This document shows, piece after piece, positions 1-51,611 of a stretch of 64,000 bases of DNA. Position 1 is the first letter of the stretch. Every line of letters begins with the position of its first letter. The notes beneath the pieces were generated by a model. The model worked only from the letters and a program-made list of their open reading frames with translations. It did not search any database and was not told where the DNA came from. This stretch comes from Bacillota bacterium (lineage in GTDB: Bacteria > Bacillota > UBA4882 > UBA8346). Location: NCBI GenBank assembly GCA_029974635.1, contig JARKQY010000051.1:1-64000 (forward strand). Reading direction: 5' to 3'. The translations under genes and the position numbers were made by a program.

Positions 1-3000
1 GATATCACAACCGCTGCGGCAAGTGAAAAACCACGTATTTTAAAAGAATTAATTCACGCCGACCGGGAAGCAAAGTTTGATTTGGAAAACGAACCCTTGT
101 TACGAATCAGGCTCGTAAAAATTGATAGTGTTACCTTTATATTGACCGTTAGTTTCCATCATATCATCATGGATGGCTGGTGTTTTGGTTTAATATTTGA
201 TGATTTTTTAAGCATCTATGCCAAACTAAGAACCGGCGGCCGGATCGAAACCAGTCCGGTAACCCCTTACTCCAAGTATATTAAATGGTTAAGCGGCTTT
301 AATAAACAAGCGGCGCGGCTTTACTGGGAAGATTACCTGTCGGGCTATAGCCTGCCTGTATATATTGGGACAGGTTCAAAATCAACCAATCCGAAGGGCG
401 ATATCAATGAAAAACTCATTGAAATAGACGGCCCTTTAGGAGCCGATATCATTAATTTCGCCAAAAACAATGAGACTACACTTAATACGGTTTTCCAATC
501 GGCCTGGGGATTGCTCCTGCAAAAATACCGGTTGCGGGATGACGTTGTCTTTGGATATGTCGTATCCGGACGTCCACCGGAGATAGAAGCGATGGAACAG
601 ATGACCGGTTTGTTTATTAATACGGTTCCGCTACGGATTAAAACGGACCGGAACAGCACCTTCATGGATGTATTGCACAAAGTAAAAGCGGACAATATCG
701 GCGCGAAGCCCCATGAAAACTTGTCACTGGCTGAAATTCAGTCATTATCCGCCGTTAAGCGGGGGGTATTCGACCATATTATAATTTATGAGAACTTTCC
801 CGCCGGAGAATATGTCCATGACCAAAAAACCAAAATGCGTACCGGTTTTGAAATCACCGGCATCGAAGTTTTTGAAAAGACCGAGTATGATTTTACAGTG
901 ACCATAACCCCTCAAGATCAATCTTTTACAATCCTTTTCCAATATACTGACGGTTTTAACCGGCAGTGGGTTGATATTATCGGGAATCACCTGGTAAATA
1001 TCATTCAATGCCTGATTACCCATTGTCATCAAAAAATTGGTGAACTAAGCTTTGCAAGTAACCGGGAAAAAGACCTTATATTAAAGATGCTTCACCATCC
1101 AGCCAAAGAGCACCGCCAAAAAACCAGCGTCAAGGAGCTGTTTGAACGTGCCGCCGCCAAGTATTCCCATAATACGGCGCTTAGACTCCGTGACAAATTC
1201 ATCACTTATCAAGAACTTAATCACCGGTCAAACCGCTTAGCGCAACGGTTAATCGCAACCGGAGCCCGCCGGGACGGAATAATCGGTTTGCTTTTTTATC
1301 CGTCCATTGAAATGATAGTCAGCATTTTGGCGGTGCTTAAATCCGGAGCGGCATATTTGCCCATTGAACCTAATCTGCCCGAAAGCAGAATCAATTATCT
1401 GCTTCGTGACAGCGGGGCCAATATTCTCATCCGCAGCGGTGAAAACGCGTTTAAATCTCCGGCATACCTTAAAGAAATACTTATTGACCGGGAGCCTCCG
1501 GCTAATTTTGGCGCTGAAAATCCGGATATCCAAATCGCTTCGGACTCATTGGCCTATGTAATCTATACTTCGGGCTCGACCGGCAACCCCAAGGGAGTTT
1601 TGGTCGAACACCGCAATCTATTGGCCTATATCAATGCGTTTAACGATTATTTTGCCGTAAATCACCGGGATATTTTTCTGCAGCAAGCGTCATACTCCTT
1701 TGACGCCTTTGTGGAGGAAATGTATCCGGTGCTTTTAAAAGGAGGGATCATCGTTATCGTGCCGCGCGGCCTGGCTAAAGACATGATCCGCTTACGGGAA
1801 TATGCCGAACAATGCCAAGTAACAATGATCAGCGCTTCCCCGCTCCTGTTAAATGAGCTGGATAAAATGAAAAACATTGCGAGTGTCCATACTTACATCA
1901 GCGGGGGCGATGTTTTAAAAAAGGAGTATATTCAAAACCTGCTCACCCGGGGAAAAGTGGTCAACACTTACGGCCCCACCGAGACTACCGTCTGTTGCAC
2001 TTATTATGAATGCCGCAAGGATGATGAGGTGATCCCCATCGGAAAACCCATTGCCGGCTATGAAATTTTGATCCTGGATGAAAATAAATCCCTGCAGCCC
2101 TTATTAATCCCCGGCGAAATCCATATCGGCGGAACCGGTGTAACCCGGGGATATTTAAACCGTGATGAGTTGACCCGGGCCAAATTTATCCCGCATCCAT
2201 ACAAACCCGGCGAAATCATTTACTGTTCCGGGGATTACGGCAGGGTCCATCCGGATGGATATCTTGAGTTTTTGGGAAGAATTGATAGCCAGGTTAAAAT
2301 TCGGGGTTATCGGATCGAGACTGCGGAAATTGAAAATAAACTGCTGGCGCACGATGACATCAGCGAAGCGGTGGTTGTGTCCCGGAAAGGCAAGAACAAT
2401 GAGGATGAATTGTGCGCTTATTTTACATCCGGCAAAGAGGTCTATGTGGACCAGTTACGGGATTATCTGGCCGCGATACTGCCTGAGTATATGATACCCG
2501 CCTATTTTATCAGGCTGGCGAAAATGCCGGTGACTGTATCCGGCAAAGTGAATCCGGCCGGACTTCCGGAACCATATCTGCTGATTAATACCGGCGCGGA
2601 ATATGTCGAACCATCCACCTCGGATGAAAAAATCTTGGTCAAAGTGATTCAAAACGTATTGAAGGTTGACCGGGTGAGTGCCGGCGATAAGTTTTTTAAT
2701 CTGGGCGGAGACTCGTTAAAGGCTGTACGGGTCGTTGGCAGCTTAAAAGAATATAATATCAACCTGGGATTGAACTTGCTGATGAGTAATATGACCTTCC
2801 GAGACTTGGCATCCCACTTTGAGCATCCGGAAGCCAGTCAAAAAAACAATTGTTTTCAAGGCGAAGTCAAGCTGCATCCATATCATATCGCCCTCTTTAG
2901 TAATACTTTCCCCGGCAATTTTACGGATGCGGTCCATTGGAATACTTCAGGCATGTTTCGCAGCGCGGACCGCCTGGATTTTAAGACCGTTAAAATGGTC

Positions 3001-4212
3001 GCCACCGAAATAGTGAGATATCATGATGCGCTCCGGACTGTCTTTTACCAAAAACAGGGTATCATCAAACAATTTGTGCCGATTGCCGCCGGATATGAAG
3101 CAGATGTTTTATATTTTGACTTCTCCGGGGTTAAGGACACGCTGAATGAGACCCTGCTGCAAACAATGACGGTCATTCAGAAAAGTTTCAAACCGGACCG
3201 GCTTTTTAAGGTGGTGTTATTCCGGACCACTGCCGGTGATTATCTCTATTTTACCGGAAATCATCTGATCACCGATGCTTATTCGGATAATATCATTTAT
3301 GAGGATTTCTTCCACGGATACAACCTGGCAATCCACCACCGGAAAATTACATTCTTCCCCAAGACGGCCTCTTACGCGCAATGGATTGAAAAGCTTTATG
3401 AATATTCCCAAAGCAGTCAATTAACGGCAGAGATCAGCTATTGGAAAAAGATTGTTACGCCCTCCGCGCCGGCGCTGAAAAAAGATTTTAGCCCCCCGCC
3501 GGAAGAAACTCTCGCAAACGTCGCCGACCTAGTTTCTGAACTGCTTAACGAAACAAATACCGGTTTACTGAAACAGTATTCATTTCAAAATAAGCGCCGT
3601 ATTTTTGATATTCTCCTTTGCGCTTGGAGCATTACGGTTTACCAACTGACCGGCCTTAAGCGGACGAGAATATTTTGCGTAAATAACGGACGGAATAGCT
3701 TTGACAATTCCATTGATGTATCAAGAACCGTAGGGGCGTTCATGATCACCTATCCGGTACTCATCGATTTGAAAGAAGCGCCGCGGTCGGAAACCCACTT
3801 GGAGTACATTACGAATTTAATCAACGATCTGCCCGGGCAGGGATTGGGATTTGAGATTTTAAAATATTTAACCGGGGCTGAACTAAAAAACGGCGCGCAA
3901 TTTTCCTTACCGGGCAATGAAAAGGAGACTGTTTTTAATTATGTGGGTGAATTTGCCGAAGATAGCGCCATATCCGGTTTCAATACCGGTCCAAAGATAC
4001 AACCGGTTTATTTAATCGGCGATATGAATCTAAACCGGAGTAAAAAAGCCCGGTGGACCAGTGATTTTAATATCTTTATCAGTATGATCCATAACAAACT
4101 GTCGGTTCGTTTTCAATATTCGATATCTGAATATAAAAAAGAAACCGTCCGAAAAGCAATTGCCGAATTCAGCAGGAATATTATCCGTTTGATCACAAGT
4201 GGAGGAATATAA
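1..4212 (+). CDS. Nonribosomal peptide synthetase, C-A-PCP-E module (5' truncated)
   Basis: The frame is open from base 1, so the gene starts left of the window. Counting residues from the TTG codon at base 82, domains run in this order. A condensation domain carries HHIIMDGW at about residue 26. An adenylation domain carries YTSGSTGNPKG near 495, a YGPTETT core, GDYGRVHPDGYLEFLGR, and SGKVN with the A10 Lys. A carrier domain has LGGDS with Ser near 878. A C-terminal epimerization-type domain has RTVGAF, GQGLGFEILKYL and FNYVGEF. By eye the specificity residues read D-A-E-S-I-G-T-V-C plus the A10 Lys, close to the lysine code I recall from bacitracin synthetase; this is inference. The E-domain His motif is degenerate (NHLITDAYSD in place of HHxxxDGxSW), but the second His is kept. 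The module would add and perhaps epimerize one residue. The next gene starts 2 bp after the stop, with its GGAGGA site inside this gene. Confidence 0.93.
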   Translation, partial: DITTAAASEKPRILKELIHADREAKFDLENEPLLRIRLVKIDSVTFILTVSFHHIIMDGWCFGLIFDDFLSIYAKLRTGGRIETSPVTPYSKYIKWLSGFNKQAARLYWEDYLSGYSLPVYIGTGSKSTNPKGDINEKLIEIDGPLGADIINFAKNNETTLNTVFQSAWGLLLQKYRLRDDVVFGYVVSGRPPEIEAMEQMTGLFINTVPLRIKTDRNSTFMDVLHKVKADNIGAKPHENLSLAEIQSLSAVKRGVFDHIIIYENFPAGEYVHDQKTKMRTGFEITGIEVFEKTEYDFTVTITPQDQSFTILFQYTDGFNRQWVDIIGNHLVNIIQCLITHCHQKIGELSFASNREKDLILKMLHHPAKEHRQKTSVKELFERAAAKYSHNTALRLRDKFITYQELNHRSNRLAQRLIATGARRDGIIGLLFYPSIEMIVSILAVLKSGAAYLPIEPNLPESRINYLLRDSGANILIRSGENAFKSPAYLKEILIDREPPANFGAENPDIQIASDSLAYVIYTSGSTGNPKGVLVEHRNLLAYINAFNDYFAVNHRDIFLQQASYSFDAFVEEMYPVLLKGGIIVIVPRGLAKDMIRLREYAEQCQVTMISASPLLLNELDKMKNIASVHTYISGGDVLKKEYIQNLLTRGKVVNTYGPTETTVCCTYYECRKDDEVIPIGKPIAGYEILILDENKSLQPLLIPGEIHIGGTGVTRGYLNRDELTRAKFIPHPYKPGEIIYCSGDYGRVHPDGYLEFLGRIDSQVKIRGYRIETAEIENKLLAHDDISEAVVVSRKGKNNEDELCAYFTSGKEVYVDQLRDYLAAILPEYMIPAYFIRLAKMPVTVSGKVNPAGLPEPYLLINTGAEYVEPSTSDEKILVKVIQNVLKVDRVSAGDKFFNLGGDSLKAVRVVGSLKEYNINLGLNLLMSNMTFRDLASHFEHPEASQKNNCFQGEVKLHPYHIALFSNTFPGNFTDAVHWNTSGMFRSADRLDFKTVKMVATEIVRYHDALRTVFYQKQGIIKQFVPIAAGYEADVLYFDFSGVKDTLNETLLQTMTVIQKSFKPDRLFKVVLFRTTAGDYLYFTGNHLITDAYSDNIIYEDFFHGYNLAIHHRKITFFPKTASYAQWIEKLYEYSQSSQLTAEISYWKKIVTPSAPALKKDFSPPPEETLANVADLVSELLNETNTGLLKQYSFQNKRRIFDILLCAWSITVYQLTGLKRTRIFCVNNGRNSFDNSIDVSRTVGAFMITYPVLIDLKEAPRSETHLEYITNLINDLPGQGLGFEILKYLTGAELKNGAQFSLPGNEKETVFNYVGEFAEDSAISGFNTGPKIQPVYLIGDMNLNRSKKARWTSDFNIFISMIHNKLSVRFQYSISEYKKETVRKAIAEFSRNIIRLITSGGI

Positions 4213-8119: not shown

Positions 8120-9439
8120 TTATTGCTGACTACAATTAAAACGCTCTATATACCCAAGAAAAGCTTTGATGCCCTCATCGATCAACAGTTCCCGATTGGA
8201 AATAGGTTTTTTGAGGTAAAGGTTGTCTAGACTACGCACTCGGCTTAAGGCGACATAGATTTGGCCCGAGTCAAAAGCGCCATTACCGGTGTCCAAGTAG
8301 ATGTTTTTTAAGGTGAGGCCCTGACTCTTATGAATTGTTAGGGCCCAGCCAAGTTTCAAGGGAAACTGGCTAAACTTACCAACTACTTTTTTTTCAATCT
8401 TGCCGTTGTTAACTTGATATTGATTTTTTTCCCAGGTTTCCCGAGATACCGGATAATCAATCCCCTCAACCTCAATGATTAGTTCATCTTCAGAGAGTTC
8501 TTTAATTACCCCGGTAGTCCCGTTGACCCACGCTTTCCCCGGATCATTTTTGATAAAAATCACTTTGGCACCCACTTTTAAAGAGAGTATGGGTAGAGTG
8601 GGGAAATCCTCCCTGCTGAACTTGCCTTCAATAATTGCCTGATATTGGCGTTTTGGCGTTTGTAACGCTTCTAGTTTATCGGCATTATAACGCTGGGCCG
8701 CTTCATTCGTGCAGGTTAATACTGTGATATCATCAAGTTGATCGATAATGTTTGTAGCTGTGACCCGCCCATTTAAGGTGTGGATCAACTCCCGACTTAG
8801 GTTGCTCTGACGGACTTGTTCCAAGAGATTGATGAATTCCTGGTTGGCTTGGCGAAATATTACCTCAAATTTAATATATTTGAATAACTCATCGATGATG
8901 GCTGAGCGGATAACTTGAGAATTAAAAAAAAAGCGATTCCGGTAACGTCCACTGGGTCTAAATTCGAACTGCTCTTCACGGACCACGACCGGAGGCAATT
9001 GATATAGGTCCCCAATCAGGATTAGTTTTACACCACCAAAAGGTGCGGTCGATTTGCGGTTGATTTGGAACGAGTAATTGATGGCGTCCATTAAATCTGC
9101 CCGTACCATGGAGATCTCATCTATGACCAAATAGTCGACTTCTTTATAAATCTGTGGTTGCCGGCTTTCTCGGATCTGCTCTGGGTAGAGTAAACCGTGT
9201 TCTAAATAAAAAAAGGAATGGATCGTCTGCCCACCGATATTCAAAGCAGCAATGCCGGTGGGAGAGAGAAAGACCGTATTACCGGCCAATTTGGTTAGTT
9301 CTCGCTTGGTGAAGGTAGATTTCCCAGTGCCTGCTTTTCCGGAAATGAAAGTGATTGGAGTACCACTTGTGATACAGTCGAGTGCATCTTGGAAAGCTGG
9401 TAAAGTGATATAGGGCTGTTCGATGGTTGAATTTGGCAT
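8120..9439 (-). CDS. PIF1/RecD-like superfamily 1B DNA helicase
   Basis: A 439-residue ATPase. Walker A is GKAGTGKST (residues 34-42), Walker B is VDYLVIDEISMV, motif III is LIGDLYQLPP, motif V is WALTIHKSQGLTL, and YVALSRVRS is motif VI. This set is typical of the short PIF1-like helicases of bacteria that move 5' to 3' on single-stranded DNA and resolve structured DNA. The start follows AAGGA. It is a single-gene unit, with the decayed gene just downstream. Housekeeping repair and mobile-element origins are both possible. Confidence 0.9.
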   Translation of the reverse strand: MPNSTIEQPYITLPAFQDALDCITSGTPITFISGKAGTGKSTFTKRELTKLAGNTVFLSPTGIAALNIGGQTIHSFFYLEHGLLYPEQIRESRQPQIYKEVDYLVIDEISMVRADLMDAINYSFQINRKSTAPFGGVKLILIGDLYQLPPVVVREEQFEFRPSGRYRNRFFFNSQVIRSAIIDELFKYIKFEVIFRQANQEFINLLEQVRQSNLSRELIHTLNGRVTATNIIDQLDDITVLTCTNEAAQRYNADKLEALQTPKRQYQAIIEGKFSREDFPTLPILSLKVGAKVIFIKNDPGKAWVNGTTGVIKELSEDELIIEVEGIDYPVSRETWEKNQYQVNNGKIEKKVVGKFSQFPLKLGWALTIHKSQGLTLKNIYLDTGNGAFDSGQIYVALSRVRSLDNLYLKKPISNRELLIDEGIKAFLGYIERFNCSQQ

Positions 9440-9841: not shown

Positions 9842-11236
9842 CTATTCGTATACCGAAACACTTCGTTCGCCCCGCAGCACTCCAAGCACGCCCTCCATCA
9901 TGGCAAACATTTCGTTTTCGCCCGGAATCACTTCAACAGGTGCAAATTTATCTACACGTTGTTTGATAACTCCGGTAAATCTGTTGGAATAGCCAAGTCC
10001 GCCAGTGAGGATGATTGTGTCTACATTGCCTTCCAGCACAGCGCACATTGCGCCGATTTCTTTTGAAACCTGATAGGCCATCGAATCCAGTACCAGCGCA
10101 GCAAATTCATCTCCACTATTGATCATTTTCTCGACCTGACGCACATCGTTTGTACCGAGATAAGCTTGAACACCGCCGTTTTTGATAACCTTATCAAGCA
10201 TTTCGTCCATTGTATACTCGCCGGAAAAACACATTTTAATCAGCGGTACAGCAGGTATTGAACCACTGCGTTCAGGTGTAAATGCACCCTCTCCTGAAAG
10301 CGCGTCATTTACATCGATAACTCTACCGTATCTGTGTGCACCAACAGTTATACCGCCTCCGAGATGTGCCACAACCAAGCGGCAATTTTCGTATGGTTTG
10401 CCGAGCTTTGCAGCAACTTTGCGCGCAATTGCTTTTTGGTTGAGTGCGTGGAAGATGCTGACACGTTCGATACCGGGTATGCCCGTGAGCTTTGCATTTC
10501 TGTCCATCTCATCGACAACAATAGGGTCGACAACGTAAGCGGGTATATTGTACGCTGTTCCAATTTCGTTGCCAATGATAGCCCCAAGCGCCGAAGCGTG
10601 TACTGCTGCTATATCGACTTTCAAATCCTCAAGCATGGTTGCATTGACAAGATATGTGCCACTCTCAATGGGTTTGAGCAGCCCCCCACGTCCTGCAATA
10701 GCGTCAAGTGTGCTTATTTCAAGTTGGATACTTGCCAAAGCCTGTACTATACAAATTTTACGGTAATCTTTTTGCTCTTCGATAGAAGAAAACTGTGACA
10801 GTATAGCTTTATCGTGCCGAATTGTCTGGGAAGATATCATTTGCTCGTTGTCGTAAACCGCATATTTTGTAGATGTTGAGCCCGGATTAATTGTTAGAAT
10901 ACGATAGCAATTTTCAGGCTTTTGCGGTGCTACTACCGTTTTTTCCATTTTCTTAACATCGAAATGCAGGAGTTTAGGTTTCTTGACGCGCTGGTTTCCG
11001 TCGACAGTAATACTGATTACGCAGTCAATGTTGAGCATTCGCTCTGTTACAAGCGCGAGTTTGGAGTTTATACCCTCGATATTGATTTCCATTTGCGATA
11101 TACCCGGGTCACTTGTTTCGTCAACGAATAAGCGTTTGATGTTCCAACCTTCGTTTCTTATCTGCCCAACAACTCTTCCGAGTACACCGGGGATATTTTT
11201 AACGGTGAGTTGCACACATTGAGTTTTAATTTCCAT
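9842..11236 (-). CDS. ACT domain-butyrate kinase fusion
   Basis: 464 residues. Residues 7-78 are an ACT domain of the IlvH/IlvN type: TVKNIPGVLGRVVGQIRNEGWNIKRL followed by ISQMEINIEG. From residue 111 the protein is a full-length butyrate kinase of the ASKHA fold: ILTINPGSTSTKYAV phosphate motif, AGRGGLLKPI, VVDPIVVDEM, SIFHALNQKA, VVAHLGGGITVGAH, FTPERSGSIP, GGVQAYLGTNDVR and ILTGGLGYS. Butyrate kinases make butyryl or branched-chain acyl phosphates to or from ATP and are normally about 355 residues without an ACT domain. The fusion suggests allosteric control by an amino acid, perhaps a branched-chain one; this is inference. No phosphotransbutyrylase gene is near. The start has only a weak ribosome site. 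Confidence 0.9.
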   Translation of the reverse strand: MEIKTQCVQLTVKNIPGVLGRVVGQIRNEGWNIKRLFVDETSDPGISQMEINIEGINSKLALVTERMLNIDCVISITVDGNQRVKKPKLLHFDVKKMEKTVVAPQKPENCYRILTINPGSTSTKYAVYDNEQMISSQTIRHDKAILSQFSSIEEQKDYRKICIVQALASIQLEISTLDAIAGRGGLLKPIESGTYLVNATMLEDLKVDIAAVHASALGAIIGNEIGTAYNIPAYVVDPIVVDEMDRNAKLTGIPGIERVSIFHALNQKAIARKVAAKLGKPYENCRLVVAHLGGGITVGAHRYGRVIDVNDALSGEGAFTPERSGSIPAVPLIKMCFSGEYTMDEMLDKVIKNGGVQAYLGTNDVRQVEKMINSGDEFAALVLDSMAYQVSKEIGAMCAVLEGNVDTIILTGGLGYSNRFTGVIKQRVDKFAPVEVIPGENEMFAMMEGVLGVLRGERSVSVYE

Positions 11237-11392
11237 TTAATTCTCCAATACTTTTAGTTATCATAACCCATACCGTCCATTCTTTTTAGGTTATATTTTT
11301 CGATTCGTGCGTCACTGGTTTTTAAGTGTTTATGAATACCCCTTTAGTTTATAACTTAACTACTTTATTATTTCTCTATAGTTAAACCCCGC

Positions 11393-48463: not shown

Positions 48464-49816
48464 CTAAATTCTATCCCGGACGATATCCGCGCCAAGTCCG
48501 GCTAATTTTTGCTCAAATCTTTCATAGCCGCGATCAAGATATTGAAGGCCTTCGATTACCGTGATTCCCTCGGCCCGTAAACCCACAATAACTAGCGCCG
48601 CCCCGGCCCGTAAATCCGGAGCAAATACCATGGCGCCGCTTAAATTCTCCACCCCCTTAACAATGGCGCTGCGGCTTTCTACCCTAATCATGGCGCCCAT
48701 CCGGACCAGTTCATCCACATACCGGAAACGGCTTCCAAAAACATTTTCCGTAATTACACTGGTGCCCTGGGCAATAGTTAAAAGCGCGGTAATCTGCGGC
48801 TGTAAATCAGTGGGAAACCCTGGATGCGTTAAAACAGTGACGTCAGCTGCTTTCACTCTGTTTGGAGCTACGATCCGAAGCCAGTCTTCGCCAATTTCAA
48901 TATAATTACCGACCTCCCGCAGCTTGGAAATTAAGGCCTCGACATGCTCGGGAATGATATCCGCAACGGTCACATCCCCGCCGGTAATGGCGGTGGCAAT
49001 CATAAAAGTGCCGGTTTCAATCCGGTCTGGAATCACTGTATAATCAATTTCCCGGTCATAGAGCCGGGGTACTCCTTCAATCCGGATGGTATCGGTTCCT
49101 GCGCCACGGATACGGGCGCCCAGACGGTTGTAAAAATTTTGTTCTTCAATGATCTCCGGTTCTTTGGCGGCATTTCGAATTACCGTGGTTCCTTCAGCTA
49201 CAATTGCTGCAGCCATAATGTTCTCGGTAGCTCCCACACTGGGAAAGTCAAGATGAATCTCCGCCCCCCGTAACTTCTTGGCCTGAACATAAACATAACC
49301 ATGATCCTCAACCACTTCAGCGCCTAATGCCTGAAACCCTTTTAAATGCAGGTCGATAGGCCGTTGTCCGATGACGCAACCTCCGGGTTGAAATAGTTTA
49401 ACCCGGCCGTTCCGGCTTAGCAACGGACCCATTACTTGAACGGAAGCCCTCATTTCACGGACCAACTCATCCGGTGCGCAGAATCCCAAATCATTCGGAG
49501 CTTTAATGGCTAAAACGGTCTCGTCTTCCCAGTTCACTTCGGCTCCAAGTCCCCGAAGCACCCCAATCATCGTTTCCACATCCCGGATACGCGGGACATT
49601 TCGAATGATACAAAGATTATGGGCTGACAGCGAAGCTGTCATTAATTTTAAAACAGCGTTTTTGGCTCCGCTGGGGCTTACAGATCCCCGTAAACGATTC
49701 CCTCCCACAATTTTTAATCGTTCGACAGCTTTTTGGATACCCGCTTCGGTAACCCCAAGATCAACCATCGGTTTGCCTCCCAATAATTCAACCGCTCTGC
49801 GATTATAATCCGTCAT
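48464..49816 (-). CDS. murA: UDP-N-acetylglucosamine 1-carboxyvinyltransferase, Cys form
   Basis: 450 residues; the first committed step of peptidoglycan synthesis (enolpyruvyl transfer from PEP). Motifs: SGAKNAVLKL, NVPRIRDVETMI, LVREMRAS, active-site loop LFQPGGCVIGQRP with Cys147 (equivalent to E. coli Cys115, the fosfomycin target), EGTTVIRNAAKEPE and PTDLQPQ. An N-terminal extension of about 34 residues (MTDYNRRAVELLGGKPMVDLG...) precedes the usual start region. It is a paralogue of the gene at 50092-51378, with 275 bp between them. AAGGA precedes the ATG. Confidence 0.95.
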   Translation of the reverse strand: MTDYNRRAVELLGGKPMVDLGVTEAGIQKAVERLKIVGGNRLRGSVSPSGAKNAVLKLMTASLSAHNLCIIRNVPRIRDVETMIGVLRGLGAEVNWEDETVLAIKAPNDLGFCAPDELVREMRASVQVMGPLLSRNGRVKLFQPGGCVIGQRPIDLHLKGFQALGAEVVEDHGYVYVQAKKLRGAEIHLDFPSVGATENIMAAAIVAEGTTVIRNAAKEPEIIEEQNFYNRLGARIRGAGTDTIRIEGVPRLYDREIDYTVIPDRIETGTFMIATAITGGDVTVADIIPEHVEALISKLREVGNYIEIGEDWLRIVAPNRVKAADVTVLTHPGFPTDLQPQITALLTIAQGTSVITENVFGSRFRYVDELVRMGAMIRVESRSAIVKGVENLSGAMVFAPDLRAGAALVIVGLRAEGITVIEGLQYLDRGYERFEQKLAGLGADIVRDRI

Positions 49817-50091: not shown

Positions 50092-51378
50092 TTAAAAACG
50101 CCGTAAATCAGCCCCCAACATGGTCAGTTTCTGCTCAATCTTTTCATAGCCGCGATCCAGATGAAAAAGTCCCTCAACGGTGGTACGCCCTTGTGCGGCC
50201 AATCCTGCAATGACTAAAGAGGCCGCTGCCCGGATATCGGAGGCTAATACTGTTGCCCCGCTCAAACTGGAAATTCCCCGGACAATAGCGCTTCTGCTTT
50301 CCACCATAATACTGGCCCCCATCCGGATCAGCTCGTCCACATAACGGAAACGGCTGCTATAAATATTTTCGACAATGATGCTTGTCCCGTTGGCGATTGT
50401 CAAAAGGGCGGTAATTTGCGGCTGAAGATCGGTCGGAAATCCCGGATAAGGAAGAACTGTAACATCTACCGCATTGAGCTTTCCAGGGGCCACTACCCGG
50501 ACCTTATCTTCTTCCACCTGAACCTCCGCACCGGTCTCACGGAGCTTGGCGATTAAAGCGTCAAGATGTTCGGGAATTACCTCCCCTACAGTTACATCAC
50601 CGCCGCTAATTGCCGCGGCAATCATGAAAGTACCCGCTTCAATCCGATCCGGGATCACCGTATAATCGATCTCCCGGTCATTGAGCACGGTTACCCCTTC
50701 AATTCGGATGGTATCCGTACCGGCGCCGCGGATTTTAGCTCCCAGACGGTTATAAAAATTTTGTTCTTCGATGATCTCCGGTTCTTTGGCGGCATTTCGA
50801 ATAATGGTCGTACCTTCAGCCAGGATTGCCGCCGCCATAATATTCTCGGTCGCACCCACACTGGGGAAATCCAGGTGAATCTCTGCCCCTCTGAGTTTAT
50901 TGGCGGTTAAATAGACATATCCGTGTTCCTCAACCAACTCAGCGCCCAGGGCCTGAAACCCTTTTAAATGCAGATTGATAGGACGCTGCCCAATAACATC
51001 CCCTCCGGGCTGAAAAAGCTTTACCCGTCCGATTTTGGTAAGCAACGGTCCCATCACTTGGGCTGAAGCCCGCATCTCCCTCACCAATTCATCGGGAGCG
51101 GAGAATCCTAAATCACCGGTATTTTTAATGATAAGTGTAGATTCATCCCCCCAACTGACTTCCGCACCAAGGCCTTGAATCACGCCAATCATTATCTCAA
51201 CGTCCCGGATACGGGGAACATTACGGATAATAGAACGGTTATTTGCCAATAAAGCCGCCGTCATAAGCTTCAATACCGCGTTTTTAGCGCCGCTGACAGT
51301 AACAGAACCTTTAAGTGGCTTGCCGCCAATAATCTCTAAACGCTCATTGCCCCCCGGAATATTACTATGCTTATTCAT
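50092..51378 (-). CDS. murA: UDP-N-acetylglucosamine 1-carboxyvinyltransferase, Asp form
   Basis: 428 residues from the ATG at 51378; the frame further 5' to 51525 is dispersed repeat, not coding. Nearly the same as the neighbouring MurA, but the catalytic loop reads LFQPGGDVIGQRP: Asp127 replaces the usual Cys. Asp at this place keeps activity and blocks fosfomycin alkylation in Mycobacterium and Chlamydia MurA (established knowledge). This is the last gene of the dcw cluster, 3' of murG. GGGAG lies ten bases before the start. Confidence 0.95.
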   Translation of the reverse strand: MNKHSNIPGGNERLEIIGGKPLKGSVTVSGAKNAVLKLMTAALLANNRSIIRNVPRIRDVEIMIGVIQGLGAEVSWGDESTLIIKNTGDLGFSAPDELVREMRASAQVMGPLLTKIGRVKLFQPGGDVIGQRPINLHLKGFQALGAELVEEHGYVYLTANKLRGAEIHLDFPSVGATENIMAAAILAEGTTIIRNAAKEPEIIEEQNFYNRLGAKIRGAGTDTIRIEGVTVLNDREIDYTVIPDRIEAGTFMIAAAISGGDVTVGEVIPEHLDALIAKLRETGAEVQVEEDKVRVVAPGKLNAVDVTVLPYPGFPTDLQPQITALLTIANGTSIIVENIYSSRFRYVDELIRMGASIMVESRSAIVRGISSLSGATVLASDIRAAASLVIAGLAAQGRTTVEGLFHLDRGYEKIEQKLTMLGADLRRF

Positions 51379-51393
51379 ACCCTCAGTTCTCCC

Positions 51394-51505
51394 AGATTCT
51401 GTGCGAATACCAATTGTTTGTCGCATAGAACCACAATATTTTGTATTAATCATATTGCTATATACTAAACATGCTTCGAAATCCCATTGCCCGCACAGAC
51501 TCCCA
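51394..51505. repeat. R2 dispersed repeat, copy 2
   Basis: Ends TCTGTGCG and CGCACAGA are exactly complementary; the body matches 35618-35729 (ACCACAATATTTTGTATTA, TATACTAAACATGCTTC). It sits between murG and murA and directly abuts an R1 repeat at 51506. Confidence 0.75.
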
Positions 51506-51611
51506 GTAGAGCGTATCGTAAACAAGCGGCATTTAGAACTGGCGGAAACGCTCTACTTTAATAAAACGTTCTGAAAATATATTACTACGTTATTTAGAGA
51601 ACGTTTTACTA
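51506..51611. repeat. R1 two-hairpin repeat in the murG-murA gap
   Basis: GTAGAGCG (51506-51513) pairs with CGCTCTAC (51549-51556); AAAACGTTCT (51563-51572) pairs with AGAACGTTTT (51598-51607). The right arm overlaps the murG 3' end and encodes its last residues SSKTFSK. Confidence 0.75.

Follow-up and report, generated by a model that had tools for sequence, protein, structure and literature searches.

An ACT domain fused to butyrate kinase in Bacillota and spirochaetes: a possible feedback-regulated kinase for the salvage of branched-chain acids

The gene for butyrate kinase (Buk) usually occurs together with one for a phosphotransbutyrylase (Ptb), although the family does not strictly require it. 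Many anaerobic bacteria of the gut use branched-chain volatile acids as growth factors, and Harwood and Canale-Parola (1982) reportedly described a spirochete kinase for branched-chain fatty acids. We know of no acetokinase-family member with an ACT domain, and of no enzyme that controls branched-acid activation in response to amino acids. In Listeria, the genes for Buk and Ptb are found together next to the Bkd operon, and the two enzymes activate extracellular 2-methylbutyrate (PMC10026030). In rumen bacteria, isobutyrate, 2-methylbutyrate and isovalerate serve as precursors of valine, isoleucine and leucine (PMC7356843). A Treponema phagedenis-like isolate requires added volatile acids, supplied as a mixture of isovaleric, isobutyric, n-valeric and 2-methylbutyric acids (PMC3879011).

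Here, we analysed a gene that joins an ACT domain to a butyrate kinase, located in a stretch of 64,000 nucleotides of a Bacillota genome (hereafter the window). We assessed its distribution, its phylogeny and the gene content of its carriers. The explanation we prefer, albeit tentatively and at somewhat less than even odds, is that of a feedback-regulated salvage kinase leading from branched-chain volatile acids to branched-chain amino acids, and perhaps to lipids.

Architecture and conservation of the fused protein

The gene occupies positions 9842..11236 of the window on the minus strand, as a single open frame of 464 aa plus stop with an ATG start and no internal stop. A ribosome-binding motif, GGAG (11243..11246, minus strand), was read from the sequence six bases 5' of the ATG. 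Three parts were delimited, all on the minus strand: (i) an ACT domain (residues 1-78; 11003..11236), based on PF22629, alignment to solved structures, invariant columns, dN/dS and model topology; (ii) a flexible linker (residues 79-110; 10907..11002), based on identity, dN/dS and model confidence; and (iii) a butyrate kinase domain (residues 111-464; 9845..10906), based on TIGR02707, identity to Thermotoga Buk2 and residue counts. Pfam assigned residues 9-74 to PF22629 (ACT_AHAS_ss, 38 bits for a cut-off of 27) and detected PF00871 (Acetate_kinase, 84 bits for a cut-off of 22), while NCBIfam placed residues 112-459 in TIGR02707 (butyrate kinase, 489 bits for a cut-off of 289) over model positions 1-348 of 351. 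The IlvH-like ACT domain and complete butyrate kinase proposed in the initial annotation were thus both recovered above the family cut-offs and in one frame, and the fusion is a novel domain architecture built from two known families. Our literature search found no paper combining 'butyrate kinase' with 'ACT domain'. No T-box or other RNA control element reached the gathering threshold, either in the window or in five loci from Bacillota. Elsewhere, the window carries a large nonribosomal-peptide-synthetase-like gene at its start (82-4212), probably extending past the window edge, and two successive MurA-like (UDP-GlcNAc 1-carboxyvinyltransferase) genes in a cell-wall gene cluster (48464-49816 and 50092-51525).

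Among solved structures, the ACT domains closest in sequence belong to acetolactate synthase small subunits, including 2f1f. The score against the small-subunit model TIGR00119 stayed below its cut-off (35 bits for 56.9, positions 3-72 of 158) because the fusion has the ACT part only, and Pfam gave no ALS_ss_C match in the fusion protein. The valine contacts of E. coli IlvH, i.e. L9, N11, L16, N29 and V35 (as cited in PMC11893703), correspond to V12, N14, L19, N32 and V38 of the fusion; these are kept in kind with respect to the E. coli protein and invariant in the 22 aligned fusions, as is the EGWNIKRL motif of the ACT domain in the aligned fusions. In codon comparisons among fusions, the median dN/dS was 0.12 in the ACT domain, 0.086 in the kinase domain and 0.45 in the linker, whose mean pairwise identity is 31 %. 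The ACT domain is under purifying selection; ACT domain and kinase are both working parts, and selection has kept them together. Control by branched-chain amino acids, as suggested at the outset, is indirectly backed by the acetolactate-synthase type of the ACT domain, its five valine-contact positions and the purifying selection.

The nearest solved kinase by sequence is Thermotoga maritima Buk2 (1saz/1x9j), with about 49 % identity. Residues were counted over 26 fused and 19 unfused kinases. The positions that we take to be catalytic, by equivalence with acetate kinase numbering, are N117, S122, R183, H213, D237, H263, R323 and E440, present in 26/26 fused kinases, and S120, present in 25/26. 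More than 20 conserved residues are specific to the fused clade. They include positions 246, 249, 284, 286, 311, 320 and 385, unlike most unfused Buk: T320, N284 and R286 are rare or absent in unfused Buk, K249 is missing from most of them, and position 385 is S in fused kinases whereas it is A in 19/19 unfused ones. Because such residues are invariant and clade-specific, the substrate range may depart from that of ordinary Buk, and they possibly reflect an altered substrate pocket. The AlphaFold model of the fusion is of moderate confidence (mean pLDDT 68, pTM 0.50). It shows the expected beta-alpha-beta-beta-alpha-beta ACT fold, falls below 50 in confidence at residues 86-100 of the linker and retrieves Buk from the PDB; its geometry of ACT-kinase contacts is not reliable.

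These residues bear on a different explanation, with a ligand of the ACT domain other than a branched-chain amino acid, or a mainly oligomerising function for this domain, and with ordinary butyrate, propionate or another acid as substrate of the kinase. The ligands of ACT domains are diverse, and S385, T320, N284, R286 and K249 could mean a changed substrate. With acetolactate synthase small subunits as closest ACT relatives and all valine-site residues retained, we nevertheless consider this explanation somewhat unlikely.

Distribution, phylogeny and gene neighbourhood

Searching genome contigs with the complete protein sequence retrieved 23 full-length fusions at 62-68 % identity, from Treponema/Spirochaetaceae, Oscillospiraceae, Christensenellaceae and Peptococcaceae assemblies. 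In 200 genomes from the family of one Treponema carrier (hereafter the termite-Treponema family), 21 carriers were found, three of them new. The set of 26 fused kinases comprises that of the window, the 23 scan matches and two new full-length Treponema-family sequences, so that the fusion is present in at least 26 bacteria from two phyla. Many of these bacteria appear to come from termite guts; the sample codes Emb289 and Co191 designate the higher termites Embiratermes and Cornitermes (PMC7024585).

The fusion is rare in broad samples: 60 relatives yielded no other case, a 399-genome sample of the window's phylum had it in the window alone, and among 393 genomes of the spirochaete phylum the centre genome was its sole carrier. 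An oddity confined to the window's own group was ruled out, as the collection scan found the fusion elsewhere. Similarly, the 25 further same-frame fusions in other genomes exclude chance and mis-assembly, including the possibility, raised with the initial annotation, that a sequencing error had joined two separate proteins.

A phylogenetic tree of kinase domains was inferred from 26 fused and 19 unfused sequences, the latter taken as outgroup. All fused kinase domains form one clade (support 100/100) of single origin. Bacillota sequences branch first in this clade, those of the window and Peptococcaceae grouping together, and the spirochaete fusions are nested inside the Bacillota ones (support 97/91), a topology that suggests transfer from Bacillota to spirochaetes.

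No conserved operon was found, the neighbouring genes varying among the fusion loci examined; a few related Treponema share an isoamylase-type gene and a 5'-nucleotidase-like gene upstream. At one locus (L056, 6746-11074), the fusion is flanked by purA and guaA, from which it is separated by 16 and 14 bases, whereas in another carrier (L082, 13415-16267) these two genes are neighbours, some 30 bases apart, with no fusion between them. This arrangement is an apparent single-gene insertion and, together with the unconserved neighbourhoods, indicates that the fusion appears to move as a single gene. In three related Treponema (L133, L134 and L135), the strand opposite to that of the fusion carries a vor operon, located some 2-9 kb downstream of the fusion gene.

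Lipid genes did not recur near the fusion at the loci examined. This argues against a role in lipid synthesis, in which the kinase would supply branched-chain acyl-CoA or acyl-ACP primers and the amino-acid signal would balance priming against amino-acid supply. Such a role finds some support in Listeria, where Buk/Ptb activates 2-methylbutyrate and acyl-CoAs of this kind start branched fatty acid synthesis (PMC10026030). We regard it as highly improbable; it is compatible with salvage, and the two can coexist.

Gene content of the carriers and direction of the reaction

Among the 24 carriers searched, AckA is present in 22 and an unfused Buk in five, the fusion being the sole butyrate kinase in 19/24. 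A Ptb-like gene was identified in 5/24 carriers and no Ptb-like match in 19/24, the split between Ptb and Pta being judged from scores and neighbouring buk genes; five of the 24 have no PTA_PTB match whatever. The ptb-buk pairs (L079 in the window genome; L080, L081 and L083) exclude the fusion, and no ptb was seen beside any fusion. The window genome possesses a second, unfused Buk beside ptb on another contig; this ptb is the only PTA_PTB-family gene found there, which agrees with the absence of a nearby phosphotransbutyrylase noted initially. No AckA-like gene was found in the window genome.

A VorB-class alpha subunit (2-ketoisovalerate:ferredoxin oxidoreductase) was detected in 21/24 carriers, and the eight representatives scanned against NCBIfam exceeded its cut-off. 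In the 200 termite-Treponema-family genomes, VorB is not significantly enriched in carriers (16/21 vs 120/179, p=0.47). KARI is missing in 17/24 carriers. Within the same family, it is present in 4/21 carriers vs 94/179 non-carriers (Fisher p=0.005) and, considering VorB-positive genomes, in 3/16 carriers vs 63/120 non-carriers (p=0.015), associations that are suggestive only, since these are draft genomes with relatives counted separately and no correction for kinship or completeness. The window genome has a KARI gene (L087, 9860-10960 of contig C41) that stands alone, scores more weakly than the KARI of other carriers and has no ilvB or ilvH beside it; a PduL-like gene is close by (8572-9195). 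An ACT query found no separate IlvH in the window genome.

These data bear on the direction of the reaction. The initial annotation linked the kinase to amino-acid breakdown with ATP formation. In such a catabolic role, the final step of valine, leucine and isoleucine fermentation would yield ATP from branched-chain acyl phosphates, and the ACT domain would activate the enzyme when these amino acids are plentiful. The frequency of vorB in carriers is in line with this, as 2-ketoisovalerate oxidoreductase and kinase operate catabolically in amino-acid fermenters. Conversely, most carriers lack a recognisable Ptb, the fusion stands outside the ptb-buk pairs even where these are present, a catabolic role does not predict the enrichment for KARI absence and the known cases of feedback by acetolactate-synthase-type ACT domains are, to our knowledge, inhibitory. 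Breakdown is thus probably the wrong direction and we judge a catabolic role unlikely: with no Ptb-like gene found in 19/24 carriers and KARI tending to be absent, synthesis of branched-chain amino acids from salvaged acids fits better. The kinase is reversible, and gene content alone leaves its direction unsettled.

Proposed salvage of branched-chain acids and comparison with known systems

In the feedback-regulated salvage that we prefer, we infer the ligand, the inhibition, the substrate and the direction of the kinase as follows. ACT domains would pair and, as happens in acetolactate synthase, accommodate valine, isoleucine or leucine at the interface between them; the bound amino acid would inhibit the kinase. 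The kinase would spend ATP mainly on isobutyrate, 2-methylbutyrate and isovalerate from the gut, branched-chain acyl substrates being plausible since butyrate kinases accept such groups. The acyl phosphate would then be converted to acyl-CoA by Pta or PduL, or by Ptb in the carriers that have it; in the others, this step would depend on Pta or PduL. The acyl-CoA would be reductively carboxylated by 2-ketoisovalerate:ferredoxin oxidoreductase, and the resulting 2-oxoacid transaminated to valine, isoleucine or leucine, part of the acyl-CoA possibly priming branched lipids. The fusion would thereby stand at the first committed step of salvage and be braked in the way that acetolactate synthase is on the de novo route.

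Four observations weaken this salvage scheme: a Ptb for the step from acyl phosphate to acyl-CoA is missing from most carriers, five of which gave no PTA_PTB match; no conserved neighbour ties the fusion to valine metabolism; the window genome and 4/21 Treponema carriers retain KARI; and loss of KARI equally fits plain amino-acid uptake. A broader proposal, that branched-chain amino acids exert feedback on an acetokinase-family enzyme, that salvage replaces acetolactate synthase and KARI, and that a one-gene cassette has crossed phyla in insect guts, is possible and a little more doubtful still. A kinase that itself senses amino acids would directly explain how branched-acid activation is controlled, and the fusion suggests that regulation can pass between phyla as one self-contained gene.

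Compared with described systems, the fusion resembles Buk (TIGR02707; Thermotoga maritima Buk2) in its full-length kinase domain and conserved catalytic positions, and differs from it by an N-terminal ACT domain, a clade of its own and the lack of a ptb partner. It shares with IlvH/IlvN (PF22629; 2f1f, 2fgc, 2pc6) the same type of ACT domain, alignable over 60-75 residues, but is devoid of the C-terminal ALS_ss_C domain; moreover, IlvH/IlvN pairs with its synthase, whereas the ACT domain of the fusion is covalently joined to the kinase. The two-step activation of external branched short acids by the Ptb-Buk of Listeria and Bacillus is also what we propose here, although the fusion gene is solitary, carries an ACT domain and usually occurs where no Ptb-like gene was found. 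Finally, the activity proposed for the fusion is that of the spirochete branched-chain fatty acid kinase.
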